A stretch of 59,498 nucleotides of DNA from Alphaproteobacteria bacterium (GTDB lineage Bacteria; Pseudomonadota; Alphaproteobacteria; VGDZ01): NCBI GenBank assembly GCA_016869515.1, contig VGDZ01000012.1:1-59498 (forward strand), given 5' to 3'. Shown piece after piece: positions 43,722-59,435 of the stretch (positions are counted from its first letter, which is position 1; every line of letters begins with the position of its first letter). A program made the position numbers and the translations under genes. The notes under the pieces are model-generated. The model saw only the letters and a program-made list of their open reading frames with translations, had not been told where the DNA came from and searched no databases.

Positions 43722-45776
43722 TCACGCGGTCTCGCGCAAGACCAGGCAGCCATGGCGGTCGACCTCGCCCTCCTGGCCGGGATAGACCAGGGTGGTGGTA
43801 TCGAGCTGCACCAGGATGGCAGGGCCCTTGATGCGCGCGCCGGCACCCAGGCGATTGCGGTCGTAGACCGGGGTCTCGATCGGCTGGCCGTCGAAATCGA
43901 CCTTCTGGCGGTCGATGCGCGCGGCGTCGATCGGCCCGGCCTTGGGCAGTTCCAAGGGTGCCGGCCGCGGCAGGCTGCCGGTGGCGGTGACCCGCAGGGT
44001 GACGATCTCGACCGGGGTATCGGGCTGGGCGAAGGTGTAAAGCCGCTCGTGCAGGCGGTGGAAGGCCTCGATCGTGCCTTCGACGCCCGACCACGGCACG
44101 GTCAGCTCGAAGCCCTGGTGGACATAGCGCAAGGCCGCCATGCGAGCGATGGCGCGGCCCGATTCCGGCACCGCCTCCTCGGCCAGCCATTCGCGCGCGG
44201 CGCGTTCCAAATCGGTATAGACCGCTTCCATCCCGGCACGGTCGTAATCGGGCGGGCGTTGCAGATAGGTGCGGGCAAATTCCGACTTGAGGTTCGAAAC
44301 CAGGAGCCCCAGCGCCGACAGCACGCCCGGCGCCGCCGGCACGACGATGGTGCGAACGCCCAAAAGCCGCGCCAGGGCCGTGGCGTGCAAAGGTCCCGCG
44401 CCACCGAAGGGCAGCAGCGCAAAATCGCGCGGGTCGTGGCCGCGCTCGACCGACACCACGCGGATCGCGCCGACCATGTTGTTGTCGATGATCGACAGCA
44501 TGCCGCGTGCCGCCGCGGCCGGATCGAGACCCAGCGGCTTGGCGATCTTGTCGGCGACGGCGCGCTTGGAGGCCTCGCGATCCAGCGTCAGCCGGCCGTC
44601 GAGCAATTTCGGCGTCAGCCGGCCGAGCAGCAGGTTGGCGTCGGTCACGGTCGGCTCGATCCCGCCGCGGCCATAGCAGGCCGGTCCCGGCACCGCGCCG
44701 GCGCTGTGCGGACCGACGGTCAGCGCGCCGGCTTCGGTGACGCGCGCGATCGAGCCGCCGCCGGCGCCGATGGTGACGATGTCGACCATCGGCAGGGTCA
44801 GCGGCCATTCGCCCACCCGGCCTTCGACCGTGGCGCCGGGCTGGCCGTCCTGGATCAGGCAGATGTCGGCCGAGGTGCCGCCGATATCGATGCTGATCAG
44901 GTTGCGATGGCCCGACAGCGCGCCGATATGCGCCGCGCCCATGGCGCCGGCCGCCGGCCCCGACAGCGCGGTCTGCACCGGCTCGCGCCTGGCGGTGGCG
45001 GCGCTGGCGACGCCGCCGTTCGACTTCATCAGCAACAGCGGTCCCGGCACGCCGCGCGCCTTGAGCCGGTCCGAGAGCCGCGCGACGTAGGTCGAGACCG
45101 CCGGCATGACGTAGACGTTGAGGATGGTCGCCATGCTGCGTTCGTATTCGCGGAACACCGGCAGCACCTCGGCCGAGATCGAGACCAGCGCATCGGGCAG
45201 TTCCGCCCGCACCAATTCGCGCGCACGGCGCTCGTGCGCTGGGTTGGCGTAGGAATGCAGGAAGCAGATGGCGATGGCGCGGATGCCTTGCTTGGCGATG
45301 GCGCGCGCCGCCGCGCGCACCGCCGCCTCGTCTAACGGTTGGATTTCCTTGCCGTCGGCATCGAGCCGGCCGGCGATTTCGTGGATGCGCTCGGGCGGCA
45401 CCGGCCGCTTCGGCTTGATCCAGGAATACATGTTGGCCTTGCGCGGAATGTCGTGGCGACCGATTTCGAGCACATGGCGGAAGCCCGCCGTGGTCAGCAG
45501 CGCCGCTTCGGCGCCCTTGCCTTCGAGGATCAAGTTGGTGGCGACGGTGGTGCCATGAAAGACGTGGCCCAGCGCCTCGGGGCCGATGCCGGCCAGCGCC
45601 AGCGCCTGGTCGATCCCGTCCATGAAGGCGCGCGAGGGATCGTCCGGAGTGGACGGCGTCTTGGCGTTCCACACCCGGCCGCTGTTGCGGTCGAGCAGGG
45701 TGACGTCGGTGAAGGTGCCGCCGACATCGATCGCCACGGCGGCGGAGCGGGAGGGATCAGGAGAGGGCATCGACAT
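43722..45776 (-). CDS. hyuA: Hydantoinase/oxoprolinase subunit A (HyuA family)
   Basis: This 684-residue ATP-binding subunit has the actin-like phosphate motif VAIDVGGTFTDVTLLD near the N-terminus, GHVFHGTTVATN and ISIDIGGTSADICL. The family couples ATP hydrolysis to opening of cyclic amides (5-oxoproline, N-methylhydantoin, caprolactam) or to ketone carboxylation. It overlaps the upstream hyuB gene by 20 nt. It is the last gene of the importer operon. The substrate is unknown. Confidence 0.9.
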   Translation of the reverse strand: MSMPSPDPSRSAAVAIDVGGTFTDVTLLDRNSGRVWNAKTPSTPDDPSRAFMDGIDQALALAGIGPEALGHVFHGTTVATNLILEGKGAEAALLTTAGFRHVLEIGRHDIPRKANMYSWIKPKRPVPPERIHEIAGRLDADGKEIQPLDEAAVRAAARAIAKQGIRAIAICFLHSYANPAHERRARELVRAELPDALVSISAEVLPVFREYERSMATILNVYVMPAVSTYVARLSDRLKARGVPGPLLLMKSNGGVASAATARREPVQTALSGPAAGAMGAAHIGALSGHRNLISIDIGGTSADICLIQDGQPGATVEGRVGEWPLTLPMVDIVTIGAGGGSIARVTEAGALTVGPHSAGAVPGPACYGRGGIEPTVTDANLLLGRLTPKLLDGRLTLDREASKRAVADKIAKPLGLDPAAAARGMLSIIDNNMVGAIRVVSVERGHDPRDFALLPFGGAGPLHATALARLLGVRTIVVPAAPGVLSALGLLVSNLKSEFARTYLQRPPDYDRAGMEAVYTDLERAAREWLAEEAVPESGRAIARMAALRYVHQGFELTVPWSGVEGTIEAFHRLHERLYTFAQPDTPVEIVTLRVTATGSLPRPAPLELPKAGPIDAARIDRQKVDFDGQPIETPVYDRNRLGAGARIKGPAILVQLDTTTLVYPGQEGEVDRHGCLVLRETA

Positions 45777-47526
45777 ACTCGCCTTGATGGAACATGCGCA
45801 CGGGGGGTGGATTCGAACGCAGCTTGCGGGTGGCGGCGGCGTCGACCGAGCGCCCGTCGGCCGCCAGCGCCACGCCGTAATCGGCGCGCGCCGATCGTTC
45901 CGAGACGAAGCCGCCCAGCACGTCGGCCAGCACGCGTTCGGGCTCGCGCGCGAACGGATCGCCCCAGCCGCCGCCGCCGCCGGTCTCGATGCGGATGACG
46001 TCGCCCTTGCGCACCGTCGTGCCGTCGCCGATCGGCGGCAACACGCGTTCCGTCGCTCGGCCGGGATTCAGCACCACCCGCCCCTTGCCGCCGCATTTGC
46101 CGCCTTTGACTCCCCAGGGCGGGAAGATCGTGCCCGACAGCCGGTTGGCCAGCATGGCGTCGGGTCCCAGCCACTCGATCTCGCGGATCACGCCGCAGCC
46201 GCCGCGATGGCGCCCGGCGCCGCCGGAATCGCGGTTGATGGCGTAACGCAACAGCCGCGCCGGATAGAGCTGGTCGAGGTATTCCGCCGGGTTGTTCTCT
46301 TGCGCCACGAAATAGACCGCGTCATGGCCGTCGGCCTGGGGACGCCCGCCGAAACCGACGGCCACGCCGTCGTTCATCAGCAGGGTCTCGCCGCTGGCGG
46401 GATCGGTGGTGCGCAGATACCAGAGCGCATAGGAGGCGATGCCGGCCCCGGCCTCGCCGCCGCTGGCCGCGCACATCAGGCCGTTGCAGGCGCTGACCAT
46501 GCGCACCATGGTCAGGCCGCGCTGGCCAAGCGGCGCCGGGAAATCGGGCTTGAGCAGGCTGCCCGGGCGCAAGCGCACCTCGTCGATGGCATGCATCAAG
46601 CCCTCGTTCAGCATCAGCGTCGGGTCTTCGCCCGAAAGGAAGATGCCGAAGATCATTTGCGGCACCGCCGGGTTCATCAGCCAGTTGATCGGCCCCGGTG
46701 CCTGATCGTCGGTGGCGGTGGCATCGACGACGATGCCGTTGTCGGCGACGTCGATCGCCAGCCGCAGCTTGAACGGTCCGTTGCCATGGCCGTCGCTTTC
46801 GACCGCCTCGACGAAGCTGCTGCGGCCGGGCGGGAACAGCGTCCGCAGCCGCTTGCGGACATGGGCCTCGGTCTGGAGATCGAGCTTGGCGAAGGCGTCC
46901 AACACCGAATCGCGGCCGAAGCGCGCGAACAGCTCCAACAGCCGCTTCTCGCCCAGCCGCACCGCCGCGATCAGGGCGCGGGTGTCGCCCTGCAGCTGTT
47001 GGGGAAAACGCGAATTGCGGATGAAGATGCGGAACAGCTCCGCGTTGAGCTTGCCTTCGCGATAGAGCCGCACCGGCGGCACCATCAGCCCTTCCTGGAA
47101 GATCTCGGTGGCGTCGGGCGACATCGAGCCCGGGCGCATGCCGCCGATGTCGGTGAAATGCGCCCAGGACTGGGCGAAGCCCGAGAGCTTGCCCTCGCAG
47201 AACACCGGTGCCGCGAACACCTGGTCGTTGAGATGGCTGACGCCGCCGTCCGAAGCGTAGCAGTCGTTGTACCAGTAGAGATCGCCCGGCCGCATGGTCT
47301 CGGCCGGGAACTGGCGCAGGATCGGCCGGATGATGTGGCCGAACAGCGGCAAGGGCGTGCCCGTGATCAGCTTGCCCTCGGGCCCGAAATAGCCGGTGAA
47401 ATAGTCCTTCTTCTCGCGGATGACGTCCGACATGGCGGTGCGTTCCAGCAGCGCCTCGGTCTCGGCCTGCGCCGCGCGCAGCGCGCCGCGCACGATCTCG
47501 AGCGTGACCGCGTCGCAAGCCGCCAT
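45757..47526 (-). CDS. hyuB: Hydantoinase/oxoprolinase subunit B (HyuB family), first of two
   Basis: This 589-residue HyuB protein has the blocks SDVIREKKDYFTGYFGPEGKL, GDLYWYNDCYASDGGVSH and SWAHFTDIGGMRPGS, plus the Gly-rich RIETGGGGGWGDPF near the C-terminus. It is about the same length as, and clearly paralogous to, the next gene upstream. B subunits provide the hydrolytic half that works with HyuA. Its start is 3 nt after the stop of the other hyuB. Confidence 0.9.
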   Translation of the reverse strand: MAACDAVTLEIVRGALRAAQAETEALLERTAMSDVIREKKDYFTGYFGPEGKLITGTPLPLFGHIIRPILRQFPAETMRPGDLYWYNDCYASDGGVSHLNDQVFAAPVFCEGKLSGFAQSWAHFTDIGGMRPGSMSPDATEIFQEGLMVPPVRLYREGKLNAELFRIFIRNSRFPQQLQGDTRALIAAVRLGEKRLLELFARFGRDSVLDAFAKLDLQTEAHVRKRLRTLFPPGRSSFVEAVESDGHGNGPFKLRLAIDVADNGIVVDATATDDQAPGPINWLMNPAVPQMIFGIFLSGEDPTLMLNEGLMHAIDEVRLRPGSLLKPDFPAPLGQRGLTMVRMVSACNGLMCAASGGEAGAGIASYALWYLRTTDPASGETLLMNDGVAVGFGGRPQADGHDAVYFVAQENNPAEYLDQLYPARLLRYAINRDSGGAGRHRGGCGVIREIEWLGPDAMLANRLSGTIFPPWGVKGGKCGGKGRVVLNPGRATERVLPPIGDGTTVRKGDVIRIETGGGGGWGDPFAREPERVLADVLGGFVSERSARADYGVALAADGRSVDAAATRKLRSNPPPVRMFHQGEYVDALS

Positions 47527-47529
47527 GAC

Positions 47530-49311
47530 CTACTCCATCCGCTCGCGATAGACCTTGCGGTGGAACAGCGCCGCCGGCGTCCGCGTCCGCCGCAGCGCGG
47601 CCGTGGCCGCGGCGTCGATGGCGCTTCCGTCCTTGGTCAGCGCCACGCCGTAATCGGCCCGCGCCGATTCGACCGAGACGAAGCCGCCCAGCACGTCGGC
47701 CAGCACGCGCGCGGGCTCGCGCTCGAAGGGATGGCCGAAGCCGCCGCCGCCGCCGGTCTCGATGCGGACGACATCGCCCCTGCGCACCACCGTGCCGTCG
47801 CTGACCGGCGCCACCTCGCGCCGGTCGGGCCGGTCGGGATTGACCGTGCAGCGCCCGCCGCGGCCGTTGAGGCCGCCGCCGACGCCCCAGGGCGGGTTGG
47901 TGACGCCGTCGATGCGGATCGACAGCATCGCCTCCTCGGCCAGCACCTCGATCTCGCGGATCACGCCGCAGCCGCCGCGCCAGCGGCCGGGGCCGCCGGA
48001 ATCGGGATTGATGGCATAGCGCAAGAGGCGCACCGGATAGCTCAGATCCATGAACTCGGCCGGGTAGTTCTCGTTGGCCACCAGATAGACCGCGTCGATG
48101 CCGTCGGCGAAGGCGCGCGCGCCATAGCCGACCGCGATGCCGTCGGTCAGCAGGAAGCGCGTGCCGGCGGCATCGGCGATGCCACGCAAGTAATAGATGA
48201 CGTAGACATTGCCGGAGGCGACCGCCTTGCCGCCGGTGGCGACGGCGAGCAGGCCCAGGCAGGCGGCGCTGGTGCGCATCAGCGTCATGCCGCGCTGTCC
48301 GAGCGGCGCCGGAAAGCGCGGCGCCAGCAGGCTGCCGGGCCTGGTCTTGACTTCGTCCAGCGCCGCCAGCGCGCCGTGATTGAGCAGCGCCGAGGGCTCG
48401 TCGGACAGGAAATAAATTCCCAGCACCAGCTTGGGCACGTCGGGATGCATGATGAAATTGATCGGCCCCGGCGCCTGGTCGTCGCTGGCCGAGGCATCGA
48501 GCACGGCGCGGTTGCCGACTTCCAGCGCCATGCGGATGGCGAACGGTCCGTGGCCTTGGCCGTCGCTGTCGACCGCCTCGGCGAAGGCGTAGCGCCCGGG
48601 CGGCACGGTGTCGCGCATGCGCCGCGCCACCACGCCGCGGGTCTCGGCGATCAGCGCGGCGAAGGCCTCCAGCACGGAGGCGCGGCCGAAGCGCGCGAAC
48701 ATCTCTCCCAAGCGCCGCTCGCCCAGCCGCACCGCCGCGGTGGCGGCGCGGATGTCGCCGGTGACCATGTGCGGAAAGCGCGAATTGCGCACGAACACCC
48801 TGAGCGCGTCCTGGTTGGTCTCGCCCGCGCGCACCAGCCGGATCGGCGGCACGATGATGCCTTCCTGGAAGATGTCGGTGGCGTCGGGCGAGAGCGAACC
48901 CGGCCGCAGCCCGCCGATGTCGTTGAAATGCGCCCAGGACAGGGCGAAGCCCGAAAGCTGGCCCTCGGCGAACACCGGTGCGATGAACACCTGGTCGGGC
49001 GAATGGCTGACCGCGCCCTTGGAGGCGTAGCAGTCGTTGTACCAGTAGAGATCGCCCGGCTGCATCTCGGCGCGCGGATAGTGCTCCAGCACCGGCTCGA
49101 TCATGCCGCCGAAGATCGGAATGCTGGTGCCGACCACCATCTCGCCCGCGGGCCCGAACAGGGCGACGAAGAAATCCTTCTTCTCGCGGATGAAGGCCGA
49201 CATCGCGGTGCGCGCCAGGAGCGTCTCCATCTCCAGCTGGGCCGAGCGCAGCGCGCCCTTGACCAGCTGGGTGGCGATCGGATCCGCGCCCGGGCGCGGC
49301 CGGGCCGACAT
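47530..49311 (-). CDS. hyuB: Hydantoinase/oxoprolinase subunit B (HyuB family), second of two
   Basis: This 593-residue paralogue of the neighbouring HyuB has matching blocks SAFIREKKDFFVALFGPAGEM, GDLYWYNDCYASKGAVSH and RIETGGGGGFGHPF. The ATG at 49311 shares one base with the stop of the M28-like gene, so the two are coupled. Two B subunits with one A subunit suggests a three-component enzyme, or two enzymes sharing HyuA. Confidence 0.9.
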   Translation of the reverse strand: MSARPRPGADPIATQLVKGALRSAQLEMETLLARTAMSAFIREKKDFFVALFGPAGEMVVGTSIPIFGGMIEPVLEHYPRAEMQPGDLYWYNDCYASKGAVSHSPDQVFIAPVFAEGQLSGFALSWAHFNDIGGLRPGSLSPDATDIFQEGIIVPPIRLVRAGETNQDALRVFVRNSRFPHMVTGDIRAATAAVRLGERRLGEMFARFGRASVLEAFAALIAETRGVVARRMRDTVPPGRYAFAEAVDSDGQGHGPFAIRMALEVGNRAVLDASASDDQAPGPINFIMHPDVPKLVLGIYFLSDEPSALLNHGALAALDEVKTRPGSLLAPRFPAPLGQRGMTLMRTSAACLGLLAVATGGKAVASGNVYVIYYLRGIADAAGTRFLLTDGIAVGYGARAFADGIDAVYLVANENYPAEFMDLSYPVRLLRYAINPDSGGPGRWRGGCGVIREIEVLAEEAMLSIRIDGVTNPPWGVGGGLNGRGGRCTVNPDRPDRREVAPVSDGTVVRRGDVVRIETGGGGGFGHPFEREPARVLADVLGGFVSVESARADYGVALTKDGSAIDAAATAALRRTRTPAALFHRKVYRERME

Positions 49312-51041
49312 CAGGCGCCGGCCTCCTCGACCAGGCGCCGCGCTTCGCGCAGCGCCGCCACCAGCCGGTTGCGGCCGCGCATCGCCTGGGTCAGCGCGAA
49401 GCCGAGCCGCGCCCCCGGGTACTGGCCGAGATCGGCGCAGACCGCGATGCCGGGCAAGGGCGGCACCGGCACCGCCGGATCGTGGCGGAAGCGGGCGCCG
49501 CGGGTATGGTTGATCGGCACCAGGATGCGCGCCAGGCGCTTGACGACGCGATTGGCCGCCGCCGCCGGCACGCGCTTGGCGGCGATTCCAGCATGGAGAC
49601 GGTCGAGCGCCTGCTTGAGTTCGCTCGCCGCCGCCGCCGCCGGCGCGAGATCGAAGCGATCCCCCGCCGCCGCCTGGTAGCGGGCGATGGTCTGCTCGAA
49701 CTCGGCGGCGATGGCGCGCCAGTCGAACGGCAGCACCTCGGCTTCGGCGATGCGATAGGCCGCCGCCAGATAGACCTTGATGTCGCGCAGCATGATGTCG
49801 CGGTCGGCGATGTCGATGGTGTCGTTCTCGGTGTGCCAGGCGATGTTGCCGCCGCAGCCGCCGACGGCGTAGTAGCCCTTCTGCTCGCGCAAGGCGTCGG
49901 GCATGGTCGAGCTGAGCATGAACAGGCTGGAGACGCCGATGTTGTTGAAGGCGTAATCGCCGGCGCGGTGCGGACGCTCGCCGTGGGAATCGAGTCCGGT
50001 GACCTCCTTGATCACGGCCTGGGCGATGCCCTCGGCCTCTTTCATCCACGACACGTCCTTGAACACCGTCGCCCAGCGGCAGCCCGGAGAATCGCAATTG
50101 ATCTGCGCCACGCAGTTCTCGTCGATGTCGATGGCGAAGGCATCGGCGAACCAGGTCGAGCCGGCGTAGCGCCCGGTCGAATGCCCCGGCCACCAGGCGA
50201 TGCGCACGCCGCGATTGGCCATCTTGTCGCGGTGCTTCCACAAGACGCGCGCCACTTCCAGCAGCGTGGCGTTGCCGGTGGCGTTGTCGCCGATGCCGAC
50301 GTCCCAGGAATCGTAATGGCCGTGCAGCAGCACGAACTCCTCGGGCCGCGCCTTGCCCGGAATCTCGACCACCGGCAGCTTCTGGCGGAACCAGCCCTCG
50401 TCGAGGCGCGAGCGCAGCATCGCCCGCCCGCCGCGCTCGGCCAGCGCAATCAGCGTCTTGCCGTCGGGGTTGTTGACCGCCACCACCGGGATCGCCGGCT
50501 TGCGCGGCAGGTCGTCCAGGTCGGGCGTGCCCCAGATCGAGGTGCAGATGCCCCAATGGATGTCGACCCCGGGGTTGACCGCGATCACGCCGATCGCGCC
50601 CGATTGTTCGAACTCGTGGATCTTGTGCGGGAAGGCGAAGCCTTCCGAGATCACGATCTTGCCGCGGATGCGTTCGGGCTTGGACAGCTCGGCCACCTGG
50701 TTCTTCTGCATCAGTGTGCCGACCGACTTGGCGTAGCTGGCCGGAACGTAGACCAGTTCGCCCTCCAGGCCCTGGGGCATGCTCTTGGAATAGGCCGGCG
50801 GCTTGGCGCGGTAGGTCTTGCCCTCGGCCGCGACCGAGGCCTCGTAGGGAATGCTGAGATGCAACTCGGGCTCGTGCACCGTCACCGGCACGCCGTGCTT
50901 CTTCAGCCGTTCGACCATCATGTCGCAGGAAGCGTTGACGTCCTCGGGCTTCCAGCGCGGGAACTGGGCGAAGCGTTCGACCAGCTCCCAGGGAAAATCG
51001 ATGGCGACGTCCTTGAGGATCGCCGGCAGATGATCGGTCAT
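49311..51041 (-). CDS. M28-family metallopeptidase homologue with altered active site (operon copy)
   Basis: This 576-residue protein has an N-terminal region, a PA-like insert of about residues 120-215 (RGKIVISEGF, GAIGVIAVNPG) and an M28 core. The core keeps His and Asp in HGHYDSWDVGIGDNATG, the Asp in NCDSPGCRWA and the late His in WHTENDTIDIAD. At the Glu-Glu pair that supplies the general base and a zinc ligand, the sequence reads WWPGHSTGRYAGS, with no acidic residue. No signal peptide is seen, so it acts in the cytoplasm. It overlaps the iclR gene by 4 nt and hyuB by 1 nt. Confidence 0.75.
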   Translation of the reverse strand: MTDHLPAILKDVAIDFPWELVERFAQFPRWKPEDVNASCDMMVERLKKHGVPVTVHEPELHLSIPYEASVAAEGKTYRAKPPAYSKSMPQGLEGELVYVPASYAKSVGTLMQKNQVAELSKPERIRGKIVISEGFAFPHKIHEFEQSGAIGVIAVNPGVDIHWGICTSIWGTPDLDDLPRKPAIPVVAVNNPDGKTLIALAERGGRAMLRSRLDEGWFRQKLPVVEIPGKARPEEFVLLHGHYDSWDVGIGDNATGNATLLEVARVLWKHRDKMANRGVRIAWWPGHSTGRYAGSTWFADAFAIDIDENCVAQINCDSPGCRWATVFKDVSWMKEAEGIAQAVIKEVTGLDSHGERPHRAGDYAFNNIGVSSLFMLSSTMPDALREQKGYYAVGGCGGNIAWHTENDTIDIADRDIMLRDIKVYLAAAYRIAEAEVLPFDWRAIAAEFEQTIARYQAAAGDRFDLAPAAAAASELKQALDRLHAGIAAKRVPAAAANRVVKRLARILVPINHTRGARFRHDPAVPVPPLPGIAVCADLGQYPGARLGFALTQAMRGRNRLVAALREARRLVEEAGA

Positions 51042-51901
51042 GAGCGTCGTCCCTTGGCACGGGTGGCGGTAGCAAGCTGGATCGGTGCGCCCGGCGGCGT
51101 CACCACCGGCGGCGCGCCAAGCTCGCGCGACAGCGCGCTGGCATGGCTTGCGACCAGCGCGCGATAGCGTGTGGCCGCGGCCTGGGTCAGGCGCGAATTG
51201 GGGCCGGCGATGCTGAGCGCGGCGATCACCCCGCCGCCGAGGTCGCGCACCGGCGCGGCGAAGGAAAAGGCGTCGGAGTCGAGATCGCCATGGCTTTCGT
51301 TGGCGCCGGCCTGACGGATCGCCGCCAGCGCCCGCCGCAGGCTGGCGGCGCTGACTTCGGTGCGGTTGGTGAAGCGGGTTAACGGCCGCTTGAGCACGGC
51401 CTCGATCACCTCGTCGGGGGCGAAGGCCAGCAGCAGCTTGGGTCCGCCACCGACATGCAGCGGCGCCGCCCGCCCGACCTCGGCATAGAGCCGCAGCGGC
51501 TGCGGCGAATGGCGCATGTCGACGCACACCGCCGACAGCCCGTCGCGGATGGTGAGATAGATGTTCTCGCGCGTGGCGTCGGCCAGCGCGTCGAGATGGC
51601 CCTGGGCCAGGCGGATCAGGTCGGTGTGCAGCCGCGCCCGCTCGCCCAGCAGCAATGCGCCGAGGCCGAGCGCATAGCTGCGCTGGGCGTTGTCCTTGCG
51701 CACGAAGCGGCGGCGCTCCAGCGTATGCAGCAGCCGGAACACCTGGCTCTTGGTCGAGCCGGCCAGCTTGGCCAGCTGGGTGACGCCGGCATGGGGATGA
51801 TCGGCCAGCAGCTCCAACAGCGCGATGGCGCGGTCGACCGCGGCGATGGTGTAGGCCGGCGGAACGGCGGGACGGGCGAGGCGAAGGGGATCTTGCGACA
51901 T
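51038..51901 (-). CDS. IclR-family transcriptional regulator
   Basis: This 287-residue regulator has an N-terminal winged helix-turn-helix (about residues 15-80, GVTQLAKLAGSTKSQVFRLLHTLE) and a C-terminal effector domain with LYAEVGRAAPLHVGGGPKLLLA and SFAAPVRDLGGGVIAALSIAG. It is encoded inside the operon it probably controls. A TTG at 51910 is an alternative start. Candidate operators lie between 57521 and 57549, in the divergent promoter region. Confidence 0.88.
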   Translation of the reverse strand: MSQDPLRLARPAVPPAYTIAAVDRAIALLELLADHPHAGVTQLAKLAGSTKSQVFRLLHTLERRRFVRKDNAQRSYALGLGALLLGERARLHTDLIRLAQGHLDALADATRENIYLTIRDGLSAVCVDMRHSPQPLRLYAEVGRAAPLHVGGGPKLLLAFAPDEVIEAVLKRPLTRFTNRTEVSAASLRRALAAIRQAGANESHGDLDSDAFSFAAPVRDLGGGVIAALSIAGPNSRLTQAAATRYRALVASHASALSRELGAPPVVTPPGAPIQLATATRAKGRRS

Positions 51902-51906
51902 GGTCT

Positions 51907-52881
51907 TCAATCCAGGTGGCAGGCGGAACGATGGCCGGGGGCGCGCGGGCGCAACTCGGGTTCGCTTTCGGCGCAGCGCGCCACCGCGCGCGGGCAGCGA
52001 TCGCGGAAACGGCAGCCGGATGGCGGATCGCGCGCATCGGGCACGCCGCCGGAAATCGGCAGCGGATCGCGCGACTGGTCGACATGCGGCACCGGCACCG
52101 CCTTGACCAAGGCGCGGGTATAGGGGTGCTGCGGATCGCGCACCACGCTTTCGGTCGGCCCGTCCTCGACCACGCGGCCGAGATACATCACCAGCGTGCG
52201 CGCGCAGACATAGCGCACCAACGCCAGGTCGTGCGAGATGTAGACCGCGGCCAGGTTCATGGTGTCGCGCACTTCGCGCATGACGTTGAGCACACCGGCG
52301 CGGACGCTGACGTCGAGCATCGACACCGGCTCGTCGGCGACCAGGAATTGCGGCTCCAGCACCAGCGCCCGGGCCAGCACCACGCGCTGCAGCTGCCCGC
52401 CCGACAGCTGGTGCGGATAGAGATGGGCAAAGCGTGCCGCCTCGGGAAGGTGTACGCGCGCCAGCGCGCGCTGGATGCGGTCCTCGTGCTCGGCGCGGTC
52501 GATGCCGGCGTTGATCAGCGGTTCGGCCAACGCACGCAGGATGGTGAAGCGCGGATTGACCGCGTCATAGGGATTCTGGAACACCAGCTGGGCGCGGCGG
52601 CGGAAGGCGCGCAGCGCCTCGCCCTCGAGCGTGCCGAGATCGGCGCCGTCGAAGGCGATCCGCCCGGCGCTGGGGGTCTCGAGCTTGAGCAGCAGTCGGC
52701 CAGTGGTGGTCTTGCCGCAGCCCGACTCGCCCAAGAGGCCGACGCTTTCCCCGGGGGCGATCGCAAGATCAATGCCGTCGACCGCGCGCACCACGGGCCG
52801 CCTTCCCGCCAGCACGTCGCCCAAGCGACGCGTCACCGGGAAGTGCTTGGACAGGCCCTGGGCGGTTACGATCGCAGCCAT
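51907..52881 (-). CDS. Peptide-type ABC transporter ATP-binding protein (DppF/OppF-like)
   Basis: This 324-residue ATPase has Walker [14 protein letters not shown], the signature [15 protein letters not shown], Walker [12 protein letters not shown] and the OppF-type C-terminal Cys-rich motif ([15 protein letters not shown]) found in peptide importers. It overlaps dppD by 16 nt. Confidence 0.9.
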
Positions 52882-53873
52882 GTCTTGGGATCGCGCGATT
52901 TGGCGCGCAAGGTTTCGGCCTCGGTCGCGCGCCAGCAGGCGCTGCTTTGGCCCTCGGCCAGCGGCACCAGCGGCGGGCATTCCGCCCGGCAGCGTTCCTG
53001 GACGAAGGGACAGCGCGGAGCGAAGCGGCAGCCGCCCGGCGGCGCCGCCAGATCGGGCGGCGCGCCCTCGATCGGCACCAGCAGGCCGGCGCTGCTTTGC
53101 AGATCGGGAAAGGCGTTGTTGAGGCCCATGGTGTAGGGGTGGAAGGGCCGCGCCAGCACCGCGGCGGCGCTGCCGGACTCGACCACCTGGCCGGCATACA
53201 TCACCACCACCCGATCGCAGACATAGGCCACGACGCTGATGTCGTGGGTGACCAGGATCATCGACAGCCCAAGCCGGCGCTGCAATTCGCGGATCACGTC
53301 CAGCACCTGGCGCTGGATGATGACGTCGAGCGCGGTGACCGGCTCGTCGGCGATCACCAGCTTGGGATTCAGCGCCAACGCCAGCGCGATCGCCGCGCGC
53401 TGGCGCATGCCGCCCGAAAACTGGTGCGGATAGTCGACCAGCCGGGTCGGGCTGAGCCCGACCAGCTCGAACAGCTCGCTGGCGCGGCGCGCGGCGTCGG
53501 CCGCGCCCAGCCCGCCGCGCTCGGTCAGCACCTCGGCCAGCTGATCGCCGACGCGATAGACCGGGTCGAGCGAGTTCATCGCGCTTTGCGGCACGAAGGC
53601 GAAGCCGCGCCAGCGCAGGGCGCGATAGGCCGCGGCATCGAGCGCCAGCAAATCCTGGCCGAGAAAGCGGATCTTGCCGCCGACGATGCTGGCATTGCGC
53701 GGATAGACGCCGGTGACGGCTCGCGCCACCGTGGTCTTGCCGCAGCCGGACTCGCCCACCAGCCCCACCACCTGGCCGGCGCCGACGGTGAAGCTGGCGC
53801 CGTCGACGGCATGGATCGCGCCCCGCGGCGTGCGGTAGTCGACCTTGAGTCCTTCGACCGCCAGCACGTCCAT
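52866..53873 (-). CDS. Peptide-type ABC transporter ATP-binding protein (DppD/OppD-like)
   Basis: This 335-residue ATPase has Walker [14 protein letters not shown], signature [15 protein letters not shown], Walker [13 protein letters not shown] and the Cys-rich C-terminal motif [15 protein letters not shown]. It pairs with the DppF-like subunit. It lies 3 nt after the dppC gene. Confidence 0.9.
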
Positions 53874-53876
53874 GGC

Positions 53877-54794
53877 CTAGTCCCGCAGCTTGGGAAACAG
53901 CACTTCCTCGTAACCGCGGGTGAGGAAGAAGCCCGCCACCACCACCACGACGATGCACAGGCCCGGCGGCACGAACCAATGCCAGCTGCCGCGCGACAGC
54001 GCCTGCGAGGTGAAGGCGTCCTGCAGCATGTAGCCCCAGGACACGGTGCGCGGATCGCCGAAACCGAGGAAGCTGACCGCGGCCTCGGTCAGGATCGCCC
54101 AGCCGATGGCGATCGAGCCGTAGAGGAACGACAGCGGCAGGATGTTGGGCGCGACGTGCACGAACAGGATGCGGCCGTGGCCGGCGCCGGTGACCCGCGC
54201 CGCCTCGACATAGCCGCGCTCGCGGATGGTCAGCACCTGGCTGCGGATGACGCGCGCGGTGTTGGGCCACAGCAGGATCGCCACCGCCAGCACCACGTTC
54301 CACACCGAGGGCTTGAGGAAAGCGGTCAGCACGATGACGAAGGGCAGGAACGGAATCGACAGCGCGGTGTCGGCAACGCGCATCAGCACGGCGTCGACCC
54401 AGCCGCCGAAATAGCCCGACAGCAGCCCGATCAGGGTGCCGATCGCCACCACCACCATGGCGGCGGTGACGCCGACGATCAGCGCGGCGCGGGCGCCGTA
54501 GACCAGCTGCGAATAGATGTCGCGGCCGGAATGGGTGGTGCCGAGCCAATAGGTCTCGCCGGGCGGAAGGTTGCGCGCCAGACGTCCGTTGGGCTGGAAC
54601 AGGATCTGCAGCGGATCGTGGGTGGCAAACTGGTCGGCGAACAGCGCCACCAGCACGAACACCAGGTAGATCGAAAGTCCGGCCAAGGCGAAGGGATCGC
54701 GCGCCGGCTTGGCCAGGACATCGGCCAAGATCCGCCCGAGGCCGCGACGCTCGGCCTTGGGCAGAAAGGCGCCGGGTTCACTTGACGCGGTCAT
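53877..54794 (-). CDS. Peptide-type ABC transporter permease (DppC-like)
   Basis: This 305-residue inner-membrane permease has an N-terminal cytoplasmic segment, six membrane helices, the motif GTTHSGRDIYSQLVYGARAAL and the EAA loop YVEAARVTGAGHGRILFVHVAPN. It overlaps dppB by 17 nt. Confidence 0.9.
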   Translation of the reverse strand: MTASSEPGAFLPKAERRGLGRILADVLAKPARDPFALAGLSIYLVFVLVALFADQFATHDPLQILFQPNGRLARNLPPGETYWLGTTHSGRDIYSQLVYGARAALIVGVTAAMVVVAIGTLIGLLSGYFGGWVDAVLMRVADTALSIPFLPFVIVLTAFLKPSVWNVVLAVAILLWPNTARVIRSQVLTIRERGYVEAARVTGAGHGRILFVHVAPNILPLSFLYGSIAIGWAILTEAAVSFLGFGDPRTVSWGYMLQDAFTSQALSRGSWHWFVPPGLCIVVVVVAGFFLTRGYEEVLFPKLRD

Positions 54795-55755
54795 GGCTCA
54801 CCCGCGGATCGAGGGCAGTATAGGCGAGGTCCGCCACCAGGTTCATGACGACGAACACGCCCGAGATCAGCAGAAAGGCGCCCTGCGCCAAGGGATAGTC
54901 CGAGGACGACACCGCCCCCACCAACAGCCGGCCCAGCCCCGGCCAGGAGAACACGGTCTCGACCACGACATTGCCGCCCATCGCCAGCCCGAGCCCGAGC
55001 GCGAACGCCGTCACCACCGGCAACAGCGCGTTGCGGGCGGCGTGGCGGATGACGATGCGCCATTCCGACAGCCCCTTCATCCGCGCCATGGTGACGAAGT
55101 CTTCGTGCATGACCTCCAGCATGGTCGAGCGCATCAGCAAGAGCGGCAGGCCCTGCAGATAAAGCGCCAGCGTCAGCGCCGGCAGGGTCAGATGGCGCAG
55201 GAAGTCGAGCGAGAGGAAACGCTCCAGCTCGCTGTCGTAGAAGGCGCCGGCGCTGTTGGCGCCGCCGGCCGGAAACCAGCCCAGGCCGAAGCTGAACACC
55301 GCCAGCAGCAGCATGCCGACCCAGAACTCGGGCGCGGCGCGCGTGGTCAGCACCAGCGGCACGCCGATGCCCTCGATCCAGGTACCGCGCTTCCAGGCCA
55401 GGAAGGCGCCGACCACGACGCCGAAGACGTAGGCCAAGCTCAGCCCGGTGACGGTCAGCACGATCGAGTTGGGAAACGCCGCCATCAGGATGTCCCACAC
55501 CGGCTTGCGCTGGTGGAAGGACAGTCCGAGTTCGCCCGACAACAGATTGCCGATATAGATCAGGTACTGCTCCCACAGCGGCCGATCGAGACCGAACTGA
55601 CGCAGCATCGCTTCCTGCTGGTCCTCGGTCATGGTCTCGTTGATGTAGGCCGCCAGCGGATTGCCCGGCATCAGCCGGAACATCAGGAACAGGATGGTCA
55701 CCACCGCCCACAGCACGAACAGGCTGTGCAGCAGGCGCCGCCCAAGGAACGCCAT
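54778..55755 (-). CDS. Peptide-type ABC transporter permease (DppB-like)
   Basis: This 325-residue permease has the typical opening RRLLHSLFVLWAVVTILFLMFRLMPGNP, six membrane helices and the EAA loop FVTMARMKGLSEWRIVIRHAARN. It starts 31 nt after the binding-protein gene and forms the channel with DppC. Confidence 0.9.
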   Translation of the reverse strand: MAFLGRRLLHSLFVLWAVVTILFLMFRLMPGNPLAAYINETMTEDQQEAMLRQFGLDRPLWEQYLIYIGNLLSGELGLSFHQRKPVWDILMAAFPNSIVLTVTGLSLAYVFGVVVGAFLAWKRGTWIEGIGVPLVLTTRAAPEFWVGMLLLAVFSFGLGWFPAGGANSAGAFYDSELERFLSLDFLRHLTLPALTLALYLQGLPLLLMRSTMLEVMHEDFVTMARMKGLSEWRIVIRHAARNALLPVVTAFALGLGLAMGGNVVVETVFSWPGLGRLLVGAVSSSDYPLAQGAFLLISGVFVVMNLVADLAYTALDPRVSHDRVK

Positions 55756-55786: not shown

Positions 55787-57469
55787 CTACTCGCCCGGCT
55801 TGAGGTCCTCCTTGCGGCCGGCGGGATAGTGCAGCTTGCCGTCGACCGTGCGATAGCCGGCCTGGGCCAGGATTTCCCTGGCCTGCGGCACGCCGGTCTT
55901 GGGATTGTCGACCGCGCTCGAATGCCAGAACTTGAGCGCCGGCGAGACATGCGAGTTGGCGGTCACGGCGTAGCCGTTCCACGCCGCCTGCACCATGACG
56001 TTGCGGTCCAGCGCCAGCGACAGCGCGCGGCGGAAGGCCGGCTCGTCGAACGGCTTGCGGCGGTGGTTGAAGGCCACGAACTCGAAGCCGATGTCGGTCT
56101 CGGGCGCCATCTGGATCGCCGGCACGTCCTTGGTCAGCTTCTCCAGCACTTCGGGATCGCCGCCGTAGTCGCCGAGGAAGTTGAGCTCGCCCGAGCGCAT
56201 CATGCCGATGGTGGCCTCGGGGTTGGGGATGATGCGCAGGATCCAACGCTCCATCTTCGGCGCCGCCCAATGCGCGCCGAAGCGCTCGAGCACGATCTCC
56301 TCGTTGAACCGCGCCCGCGCCAGCTTGAACGGGCCCGAGCCGACGGTCGAGGGTTCCTTCAGCTGGTCGACGTTCTCGGGCTTGTTGGCGAGGTCGGCCA
56401 GGACCGGTTCCCAGATGTGCTTGGGCACCAGGTTGATCTTGGCCAGCGAGGAGGTGATGAACGAGGCGTTGGGGCGCTTCAAGTGGAAGCGCACGGTGCG
56501 CTCGCCGGTGCGCTCGACCTTGTCGATGTCGACGACGAAGGGCCGGTACATCGGCACCTTGTCGCCGCGCGCCGGCGCCTCGAAGGAGAAGATCACGTCG
56601 TCGACCGTCACCGGCCTTCCGTCGTGCCAGCTCATGCCGGCGCGGATGGTGGCGTCGACCGCCTTCTCGCCGGCCCATTCGATCTTCTCCGCCGCCCACG
56701 GCCGCGGCAGGCCGTCGGGGCCGACCCGCGCGATGCGGTCCCAGATCAAATCGGTGACCCAGGAATCGGTCGCGCCCGAGATGTAGAGCGGGCTGAGCGC
56801 GATCAGGTTGAAGCGCGCGTTCAGCACCATGTCCTTGCGCTGGCCCAGCGGCGTGGCGCCGATGAAGGTCCACAGATTGCGGATGCCGACCCCGCTTTGG
56901 ACCACGATCGATTTCGGGTCCCACACCGTCTTGTTGAACGCGGCGATGTTGAAGGGGTGGACCAGGAAGGCATAGGGCTGGTCGCGGTCGATCATGGCCT
57001 GGGCCTGCAGCACCAGCTCCTTGCGCTTGGCCTGGTCGGTGGCGCCGCGCTGGGCCTCGGCCAGCTTGTCGTAGTCGGGGTTGTTGTAGCCGACGAAATT
57101 GAAGCCGGCCTTGGCGGTGGTGGAATGGAACAGGTTGAAGATCAGTTCGTCGGGGTCCGAACGCTCGGGCCGTCCGACCATGCGCCACATGGTGGTGTCC
57201 CAGCGCTCGCGCTCGAACCACACGATCTGGCTGTGCTGCTGGCGCGGCGTCGGCCGGACGTCGACCTCGAGCCCGAGCTGGCGCCAGGTCTGCGCCACCA
57301 GCAGCGCCGCCTGGTAGGCGGCCGGCGCCGAGGCCTGCGGATCGGAGTAGAGCACCAGCTTGCGCACGCGGTCGCCCGCGGCCTGGGCCAAGGCCGGCAT
57401 GCCCGGCAACGCTGCGGCGGCGCCGGTGCCCGCGGCCAATCCGGCGATGAAACGACGACGTGTGGTCAT
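55787..57469 (-). CDS. Peptide-type ABC substrate-binding protein (SBP family 5), apparently circularly permuted
   Basis: This 560-residue receptor has a Tat-like signal (TTRRRFIAGLAAGTGAAAA). In ordinary DppA-type proteins the mature chain starts with a LNP/SG....LY..L block and ends with a lobe containing Y(S/N)NPE.D.L, KR..LY.QAQ.....Q.P and a final HP segment. Here the order is reversed. Residues 36-200 match the C-terminal part (AQTWRQLGLEVDV, FVGYNNPDYDKL, KRKELVLQAQAMIDRDQPYAFLVHP). Residues 213-556 match the N-terminal part (LSPLYISGATDSWVTDLIWDRI, SWHDGRPVTVDDVIFSF, GSGPFKLARA, FDEPAFRRALSLALDRN). The chain ends at GYRTVDGKLHYPAGRKEDL, where a normal protein would continue into the block now at residue 36. 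It is the first gene of the importer operon. Confidence 0.85.
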   Translation of the reverse strand: MTTRRRFIAGLAAGTGAAAALPGMPALAQAAGDRVRKLVLYSDPQASAPAAYQAALLVAQTWRQLGLEVDVRPTPRQQHSQIVWFERERWDTTMWRMVGRPERSDPDELIFNLFHSTTAKAGFNFVGYNNPDYDKLAEAQRGATDQAKRKELVLQAQAMIDRDQPYAFLVHPFNIAAFNKTVWDPKSIVVQSGVGIRNLWTFIGATPLGQRKDMVLNARFNLIALSPLYISGATDSWVTDLIWDRIARVGPDGLPRPWAAEKIEWAGEKAVDATIRAGMSWHDGRPVTVDDVIFSFEAPARGDKVPMYRPFVVDIDKVERTGERTVRFHLKRPNASFITSSLAKINLVPKHIWEPVLADLANKPENVDQLKEPSTVGSGPFKLARARFNEEIVLERFGAHWAAPKMERWILRIIPNPEATIGMMRSGELNFLGDYGGDPEVLEKLTKDVPAIQMAPETDIGFEFVAFNHRRKPFDEPAFRRALSLALDRNVMVQAAWNGYAVTANSHVSPALKFWHSSAVDNPKTGVPQAREILAQAGYRTVDGKLHYPAGRKEDLKPGE

Positions 57470-57520
57470 GATGTTCCCCTCTCCCTGGTCCGACCGGCGC
57501 CCCGTGGCGCATCGGGCCTC

Positions 57521-57549
57521 GTTTCACATGTCGAAACAGGTTTTCGACA
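57521..57549. promoter_or_regulatory. Overlapping inverted repeats, probable IclR operator
   Basis: GTTTC-N7-GAAAC spans 57521-57537, and TGTCGAAA-N5-TTTCGACA, a perfect 8-bp dyad, spans 57529-57549. They share a central half-site. The TTTC...GAAA pattern is common in IclR-family sites. They lie in the 232-bp divergent gap between the binding-protein gene and the M28-like gene, close to the likely promoters. Confidence 0.65.
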
Positions 57550-57701
57550 GCGGGAATATTTGAGGACGGCGTTTCGCCCTTGGCAACTGCTTTCTTGCCC
57601 CGCCCTCGCCCCCGGGCCTAGAGTTCGATGCGGACGACGCAACAGCGTTTCGTCCGCCGATACGCCCGCAACCGCTGCCGCCACCGCCGACGAGACCGCC
57701 G

Positions 57702-59435
57702 ATGAACGACACCGAACGCAAGATCCTGGCCGACATCGCCTTGGCCGAACCCTGGGCGCTGATCGAAGCCTACGCCCAGATGCCGCGCTGGCGGCCCGAG
57801 GACGTCAACGGCGGCGTCGACCACCTCACCGCCATCCTCAAGCGCCTCGGCGTGCCGGTCGAGGTGCACGAGCCCGAGATCTACCTTTCGATCCCGCTCG
57901 GGGCGTCGGTCGTGGTCGGCAACCAGTCCTTCCGCGCCAAGCCGCCGTCGATGAGCCTGAGCGTGCCCGGCGGCGTCGAGGCCGAGCTGGTCTACCTGCG
58001 CACCAATCCGCACACCATGCGCTCCTACACCCGCAACCCCGAGGAGATCTTCGTCGACGGCAAGGCGGCGCTGGCCAAGGCCAAGGGCCGCATCGTCATC
58101 ATGGACGGCTTCGCCAATCCCGGCACCTGCTCCTTGCTGGAGGAGCAGGGCGCGGTGGGCGTCATCCCGGTCAACCCCGGCGTCGACATCCACTGGGGCA
58201 CCTGCACCACCATCTGGGGCTCGCCCGATCTGGACGACCTGCCGCGCAAGCCCAAGATCGCGGTGGCGGCGGTCAACAACCCCGACGGCAAGGCGATCGT
58301 CGCCTTGGCCGAGGCCGGCAAGCGCGGCCGGGTGGTGACCGAGATGCAGGAGGGCTGGTTCCGCCAGAAGGTGCCGGTGGTGACCATCCCCGGCGCGCGC
58401 GAGCCCGGCAAGTTCGTGTTCGTGCACGGCCATCTCGATTCCTGGGACGTCGGCGTGGGCGACAACGCCACCGGCGACGCCACCATGCTGGAAATGGCGC
58501 GGGTACTGTGGAAGCACCGCAAGAGCCTGGGCCGTTCGGTGCGCATCGCCTGGTGGCCGGGGCATTCGACCGGGCGCTATGCCGGATCGACCTGGTTCGC
58601 CGACCATTTCGCCCGGGACCTGGACGAGGACTGCGTCGCCCAGATCGACTGCGATTCGCCGGGCTGCCGCTGGGCGACCTCGTATCACCAGACCACGGCG
58701 ATGAGCGAGGTCGAGAGCCACGTCACCGACGTGATCCGCGAGGTCACCGGCACCGAGGCCAAGACCAAGCGCCCCAACCAGGCCGGCGACTACTCGTTCA
58801 ACAACATCGGCATTTCGAGCTATTTCATGCTGAGCTCGACCATGCCCGACGCGCTGCGCGCCGAGAAGGGCTACTACCAGGTGTCCGGCTGCGGCGGCAA
58901 CATCGCCTGGCATACCGAGAACGACACCATCGAGATCGCCGACAAGGACGTGCTGCTGACCGACATCAAGATCTATCTGTTGTCGACCTTGCGCAACGCC
59001 AATGCCGAGATCCTGCCCTACGACTGGCGGGCGACGGCCAAGGAGTTCGGCAGCACCATCGAGCGCTATCAGGGCGTCGCCGGCGCGGCGTTCGATCTGG
59101 GTCCGTCCAAGGCCGCGCTGGGGGCGCTGTCGGCGGCGCTGGACAAGCTTTACGCCGGCATCGCCGCCGGCAAGATCGAGCCCGCCGCGGCCAACGAGGC
59201 GCAGCTGCGCTTGGCGCGGGTGCTGGTGCCGATCAACTTCACCCGCGAGCCGCGCTTCCGCCACGATCCGGCCTATACCGTGCCGGCGCTGCCGACCTTG
59301 GCCAGCGCGGCCGAGATCCCGCATCTGCCCGAGGGCCTGCGCGGCTTCGGCCGCACCCAGGCGATGCGCGGCCAGAACCGGTTCGTGGCGGCGATGCGCG
59401 AGGCCGGGCGCATCGTCGCGGCGGCGCTGGGCTGA
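57702..59435 (+). CDS. M28-family metallopeptidase homologue with altered active site (divergent copy)
   Basis: This 577-residue paralogue of the protein at 49311-51041 has the same architecture: PA-like insert (residues about 120-215) then M28 core. Residues visible include His244 and Asp254 (HGHLDSWDVGVGDNATG), Asp318 (DCDSPGC) and His403 (WHTENDT). The Glu-Glu position reads His288-Ser289 within WWPGHSTGRYAGS. No signal peptide is present. It is divergent from the importer operon across a shared regulatory gap. A quinone-oxidoreductase-like gene follows 10 nt downstream. Confidence 0.75.
   Translation: MNDTERKILADIALAEPWALIEAYAQMPRWRPEDVNGGVDHLTAILKRLGVPVEVHEPEIYLSIPLGASVVVGNQSFRAKPPSMSLSVPGGVEAELVYLRTNPHTMRSYTRNPEEIFVDGKAALAKAKGRIVIMDGFANPGTCSLLEEQGAVGVIPVNPGVDIHWGTCTTIWGSPDLDDLPRKPKIAVAAVNNPDGKAIVALAEAGKRGRVVTEMQEGWFRQKVPVVTIPGAREPGKFVFVHGHLDSWDVGVGDNATGDATMLEMARVLWKHRKSLGRSVRIAWWPGHSTGRYAGSTWFADHFARDLDEDCVAQIDCDSPGCRWATSYHQTTAMSEVESHVTDVIREVTGTEAKTKRPNQAGDYSFNNIGISSYFMLSSTMPDALRAEKGYYQVSGCGGNIAWHTENDTIEIADKDVLLTDIKIYLLSTLRNANAEILPYDWRATAKEFGSTIERYQGVAGAAFDLGPSKAALGALSAALDKLYAGIAAGKIEPAAANEAQLRLARVLVPINFTREPRFRHDPAYTVPALPTLASAAEIPHLPEGLRGFGRTQAMRGQNRFVAAMREAGRIVAAALG

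Follow-up and report, generated by a model that had tools for sequence, protein, structure and literature searches.

The locus considered here raises the question of whether a solute-binding protein (SBP) of family 5 can occur naturally with its two conserved blocks in exchanged order, and whether such a protein still serves an importer. The window, i.e., the whole analysed stretch of 59,498 nucleotides (contig VGDZ01000012.1 of an alphaproteobacterial genome), carries the gene of P0002, for which a first-pass annotation had proposed a clean circular permutation of a DppA-type protein. We consider it about 92% probable that P0002 is a naturally permuted family-5 SBP serving as the receptor of a DppBCDF importer for a peptide or peptide-like solute. 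The features of the locus are given in Table 1. The ATG start codon of P0002 lies at 57469, with a good Shine-Dalgarno-like stretch (GGGAGAGGGG) just before it, and no promoter- or terminator-like site was found in 57400–57760.

Table 1. Coordinates of P0002, its parts and the neighbouring genes in the window.
Feature	Position	Strand	Basis or remark
Permuted SBP_bac_5 solute-binding protein P0002, 560 aa	55787..57469	-	ORF; PF00496; permuted order
Signal peptide, residues 1–31, MTTRRRFIAG...ALAQA	57377..57469	-	Twin-arginine type, borderline; low pLDDT 1–25
Block 1, residues 33–204 = normal C-terminal part (DppA ~372 to C-terminus)	56858..57373	-	
R103 codon	57161..57163	-	Rotated alignment
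Linker, residues 205–212 (GATPLGQR), joins old C- and N-termini	56834..56857	-	Gap between HMM blocks
Block 2, residues 213–560 = normal N-terminal and middle part (DppA ~40 to 370)	55790..56833	-	
DppB-type permease	54778..55755	-	Pfam BPD_transp_1, BPD_transp_1_N
DppC-type permease	53877..54794	-	Pfam BPD_transp_1, OppC_N
DppD-type ATPase	52866..53873	-	Pfam ABC_tran, oligo_HPY
DppF-type ATPase	51907..52881	-	Pfam ABC_tran, oligo_HPY
IclR-family regulator	51038..51910	-	Pfam IclR_C, HTH_IclR
M28-family peptidase homologue	49311..51041	-	Pfam Peptidase_M28, PA
HyuB (hydantoinase B/oxoprolinase), first copy	47530..49311	-	PF02538, 433 bits
HyuB, second copy	45757..47526	-	PF02538, 438 bits
HyuA (hydantoinase A/oxoprolinase)	43722..45776	-	PF01968, PF05378, PF19278
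Divergent M28-family peptidase homologue	57702..59435	+	Pfam Peptidase_M28

The Pfam profile PF00496 (SBP_bac_5) matches P0002 in two stretches with 200.5 bits, against a gathering cut-off of 32.4, and the canonical collinear order of the profile is absent. Against PDB sequences (phmmer), residues 69–349 of AppA (1xoc) correspond to residues 259–544 of P0002 and residues 377–495 to 55–178; the swapped arrangement recurs with Lmo0135 (5isu). In blastp with E. coli DppA (reference sequence from MG1655), residues 76–367 align with P0002 257–538 (E 1.2e-21) and 387–505 with 49–171 (E 2.5e-7), i.e., the two off-diagonal blocks that a permutation had been predicted to give in a comparison of the dot-plot type. 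The order of the blocks was also assessed with profiles: DppA and OppA were aligned with 11 normal SBPs from the window genome, the alignment was split at DppA residue 372, one HMM was built per part, and all ORFs of the fetched loci were searched. The canonical C-part HMM matched P0002 at 47–182 (E 2.4e-21) and the N-part HMM at 224–539 (E 3.4e-50), while DppA and OppA, as controls, were called canonical. The C-part came first in 77 ORFs and the normal order was found in 43; Paenibacillus matches L084 and L086, and the matches from L087 on except L096, were excluded as canonical or unclassified. Because its C-block precedes its N-block, P0002 is classed as a permuted variant and not as an ordinary SBP_bac_5 member; its score with the DppA equivalog NF043070 is 94.7 bits, below the curated cut-off of 1005. 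Judged from the alignments, chance cannot account for the swapped pattern. The exchanged order claimed by the first-pass annotation is thus confirmed, its block limits (36–200 and 213–556) are right within a few residues, with ~205–212 as the linker, and the collinear alignment that was to speak against it did not appear. When the N-terminal 140 aa were compared with the C-terminal 110 aa in the 77 permuted ORFs, three matches had E<0.05, which does not exceed the ~4 expected by chance, so there is no remnant of a duplication.

By the same HMM order test, the window genome encodes two permuted and 18 canonical SBPs. The second permuted one (G000:C3:43715-45208; L002:1417-3279) represents a subclade in which an N-terminal extension of ~40 aa (NPKYR.FY...YY..DP.WV..T..RLTWP) is conserved and the C-terminal tail closes with GGLKM.G; the extension had no match elsewhere in the ORF set. 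In two other ORFs of this genome (L008:436-2988 and L012:847-3480, ~850–880 aa), the canonical SBP_bac_5 domain is preceded by ~370 residues. These residues have no Pfam match and may reflect wrongly called starts or a genuine additional domain.

The cut site and the short linker are common to all permuted lineages compared. In them, the chain terminates behind '..A..IL..AGY....G.L.YP', and its first element past the signal peptide is the strand that comes next after this hairpin in normal SBPs. A linker of ~10 residues connects the old C-terminus 'G.GI.N.WT' with the old N-terminus. This agrees with the earlier proposal that the chain stops where a normal protein would continue into the block now placed first. 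In the best-supported account, the old termini of a family-5 SBP are fused by the short linker (~205–212 in P0002), and the new termini arose from a break in the loop after the beta-hairpin behind the conserved 'A..IL..AGY' helix. As a result, the old C-terminal block now comes directly behind the signal peptide. The Tat-like signal peptide proposed for P0002, by which the protein would be exported, is borderline, with 15.7 bits for TIGR01409 (curated cut-off 16.7) and 11.1 for PF10518 (cut-off 22.7). Several spirochaete, Chloroflexi, and clostridial permuted members contain a lipobox according to a simple pattern, and in them the lipid anchor would therefore sit on the other lobe, given the lobe that we presume to carry it from general knowledge of DppA.

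An AlphaFold2 model of P0002, built from 44 aligned permuted proteins, reached a pLDDT of 92.3 (low at residues 1–25) and a pTM of 0.88. Block 1 of the model comprises E38-42, H49-64, E69-73, H76-85, E92-97 ... H146-163, and E166-174, block 2 comprises E213-218, H233-242 ... H527-536, and the hairpin E540-547 (E540-542, E545-547), and the linker falls between H199-204 and E213-218. In the model of the canonical paralogue L005, E37-42, H56-65 ... H336-345 come first and are continued by E352-359, H366-378, E382-389, H391-399, E406-411 ... H451-468, and E471-484. The secondary-structure list of P0002 is therefore that of L005 in rotated order, with each canonical element present once, so that the structure prediction proposed as a check favours the permutation. 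In Foldseek, the permuted model gave ~350–400 columns with a TM of 0.37–0.49, whereas the canonical L005 control gave 480–527 columns with a TM of up to 0.92; in residues, ~366 were aligned for the permuted protein and ~490–510 for the normal paralogue. These alignments are sequential only, and for the two models the contrast is the signature expected of a circular permutation. Block 2 resembles SBPs of the PDB. Most likely, P0002 has the bilobal cluster C fold predicted by the model, and its chain would close into the normal two-lobed clam-shell.

The alternative that only block 2 is an SBP, joined to an unrelated or convergent N-terminal stretch of ~170 residues, would fit the OppA comparison (blastp), in which the larger block alone was detected, and acquisition from another gene was weighed by the authors describing the permuted protein TpMglB-2 (PMC4990184). 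Such a fusion is extremely improbable for P0002, as block 1 is recognized by the canonical C-block HMM (E 2e-21 for P0002; its relatives score E ~1e-8 to 1e-25) and the rotated canonical elements, each occurring once, are modelled with high confidence over both blocks.

The circular permutation of P0002 belongs to a whole subfamily, a question that had been left to a database search: the 77 permuted ORFs represent 67 loci after removal of near-copies, with a shared order and cut site. The permuted relatives are distributed over Alpha- and Betaproteobacteria, Spirochaetes, Clostridia, Chloroflexi, Verrucomicrobia, and other metagenome-assembled genomes (MAGs), whose labels may include mis-binned contigs. 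Seven permuted proteins, their order confirmed, come from plasmid records of cultured organisms, namely the bacteria Roseomonas, Neorhizobium, Ketogulonicigenium, and Maritalea and the haloarchaea Haladaptatus, Halalkalicoccus, and Haloarcula. Close relatives of P0002 in cultured strains include WP_237182973.1 of Roseomonas marmotae and WP_273692309.1 of Ketogulonicigenium vulgare. A misjoining of two SBP fragments during assembly or binning could be suspected, since the window genome is a draft of 166 contigs and many relatives are metagenome-assembled. This reading, of practically negligible probability, is refuted by the recurrence of the permuted order on closed replicons (the circular plasmid records of Ketogulonicigenium, Neorhizobium, Haladaptatus, and Halalkalicoccus); moreover, the order and cut site are identical in the 67 loci, the ORF of P0002 is single and unbroken, and its operon shows synteny. 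In the class sample, 13 of 385 gave matches at E 1e-60. The family is sparse, because a phylum-wide search at E 1e-80 returned the window genome alone among 399.

In trees of a rotated alignment (33 permuted and 39 canonical proteins), the permuted SBPs form one clade with a support of 100/100, and likewise with the N-block alone (100) and the C-block alone (99). For the sampled set, the trees imply a single origin of the permutation, the set having been collected with permuted proteins as queries, an approach by which independent permutations elsewhere would be missed. The DppB proteins encoded beside permuted SBPs (60) also form one clade (support 98), apart from those beside canonical SBPs (31). 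Because receptors and partner permeases each form one clade, one permutation was probably kept within one transporter lineage, and because the two clades match, the permuted receptor has travelled with its own permease. Thus, the permutation would have arisen once and been retained with this permease lineage in bacteria and archaea.

The complete importer operon that had been noted was recovered, with DppBCDF encoded just downstream of P0002 and the order SBP-DppB-C-D-F-IclR-M28-HyuB-HyuB-HyuA; another M28 gene is divergent. Among the 67 loci, DppB was found near the permuted SBP in 61, DppC in 54, DppD in 53, and DppF in 48; the absence of these partners from the other loci is partly accounted for by the ends of contigs and loci. 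It could be argued that the permuted protein has left transport for a sensor- or chemoreceptor-type or another function, as a few relatives, such as the Haloarcula protein, have no adjacent transporter genes. We regard this as very improbable, since 61 of 67 loci have DppB close to the permuted gene and 48–54 have DppC, D, and F, and since the partner permeases form one matching clade. A role of P0002 as importer receptor is very likely: it would bind a peptide or peptide-like solute and pass it to the DppBCDF importer. As side observations on the plasmids, the Maritalea importer operon ends with a gene of the gamma-glutamylcyclotransferase family (L127:10389-10862), and the Haloarcula protein (L126:3800-5596), with no transporter genes listed adjacent, has a neighbour annotated as inositol phosphorylceramide synthase.

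Peptide binding by P0002 is presumed at the level of the family, and the genes of the loci suggest a peptide or amide substrate that contains unusual bonds. The M28, IclR, and HyuB genes are kept partly or wholly in the loci of close relatives. The haloarchaeal permuted-SBP operons L124 and L125 contain D-aminoacylase, dipeptide epimerase, creatininase-family, M20, or M81 genes, a hint that the substrates may be D-amino acids or amides. Separately, for the genes in window 43722–51041 (HyuA, two HyuB, M28) the best NCBIfam match was the caprolactamase CapA/CapB, far below the cut-off; the set may therefore be an unassigned ATP-dependent amide or lactam hydrolase.

R103 is invariant in 33 of 33 permuted proteins of the rotated alignment, where it occurs in 5% of canonical SBPs, and in the 44-row permuted alignment. 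It is aligned beside D436 of DppA, the residue mutated in a published DppBCDF structure among the Foldseek matches, and neither R383 nor D436 of DppA is kept in P0002. Q140 and W515 are likewise family-specific, being absent or rare in canonical members. Tentatively, and with more doubt than confidence, we suggest that a single ancient permutation founded a separate importer lineage, spread over bacteria and archaea, in which the signal peptide or lipid anchor, moved to the opposite lobe, together with R103 at the canonical acidic ligand-anchor site, alters docking, tethering, or ligand choice (perhaps D-peptides or cyclic amides) compared with DppA and OppA.

The permuted SBPs are an old family of bacteria and archaea that goes under ordinary binding-protein names where these are listed. 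Profile searches match its members in two out-of-order stretches, and the annotated examples are named generically only, the plasmid-borne ones just 'ABC transporter substrate-binding protein'. Natural circular permutations are rare in large two-lobed receptors. With permuted and normal paralogues in one genome and a permease clade of its own, the family offers a natural test of the role of chain topology and tether position in the docking and opening of a binding protein on its ABC importer.

Compared with SBP family 5/cluster C (DppA, OppA, AppA, NikA; PF00496), which we take to comprise peptide, nickel, and opine binding proteins, P0002 is homologous over both blocks, has the same predicted fold, and has DppBCDF partners, but its block order is circularly permuted and R103, Q140, and W515 are specific to its family. 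Engineered circularly permuted binding proteins serve in biosensors, and in them, too, a bilobal binding protein tolerates permutation; those proteins are man-made, whereas the P0002 family is natural and ancient. The first-pass annotation knew of no permuted peptide-binding protein. For family 5 this stands, as no description was found in the open-licence papers searched, but binding proteins with a permuted chain do have a precedent, because one of another class has been published: TpMglB-2 (Tp0684) of Treponema pallidum, a natural circularly permuted binding protein of an ABC importer assigned to 'Type Ic / Cluster Bc', whose topology was called hitherto unknown for such proteins by its authors (PMC4990184). 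Both proteins are naturally permuted relative to their own class, and in both the permutation is found across a family of homologues (PMC4990184). TpMglB-2 belongs to a different family with the cluster B sugar-binding fold (PMC4990184), whereas P0002 has neither the fold nor the sequence of type I/cluster B and its best PDB matches among those listed, by sequence and by fold, are family-5 proteins. In TpMglB-2, the permuted parts show hardly any sequence likeness (13%) and there are an insertion and a fourth hinge crossing (PMC4990184), whereas in P0002 both blocks are still recognisable by sequence.
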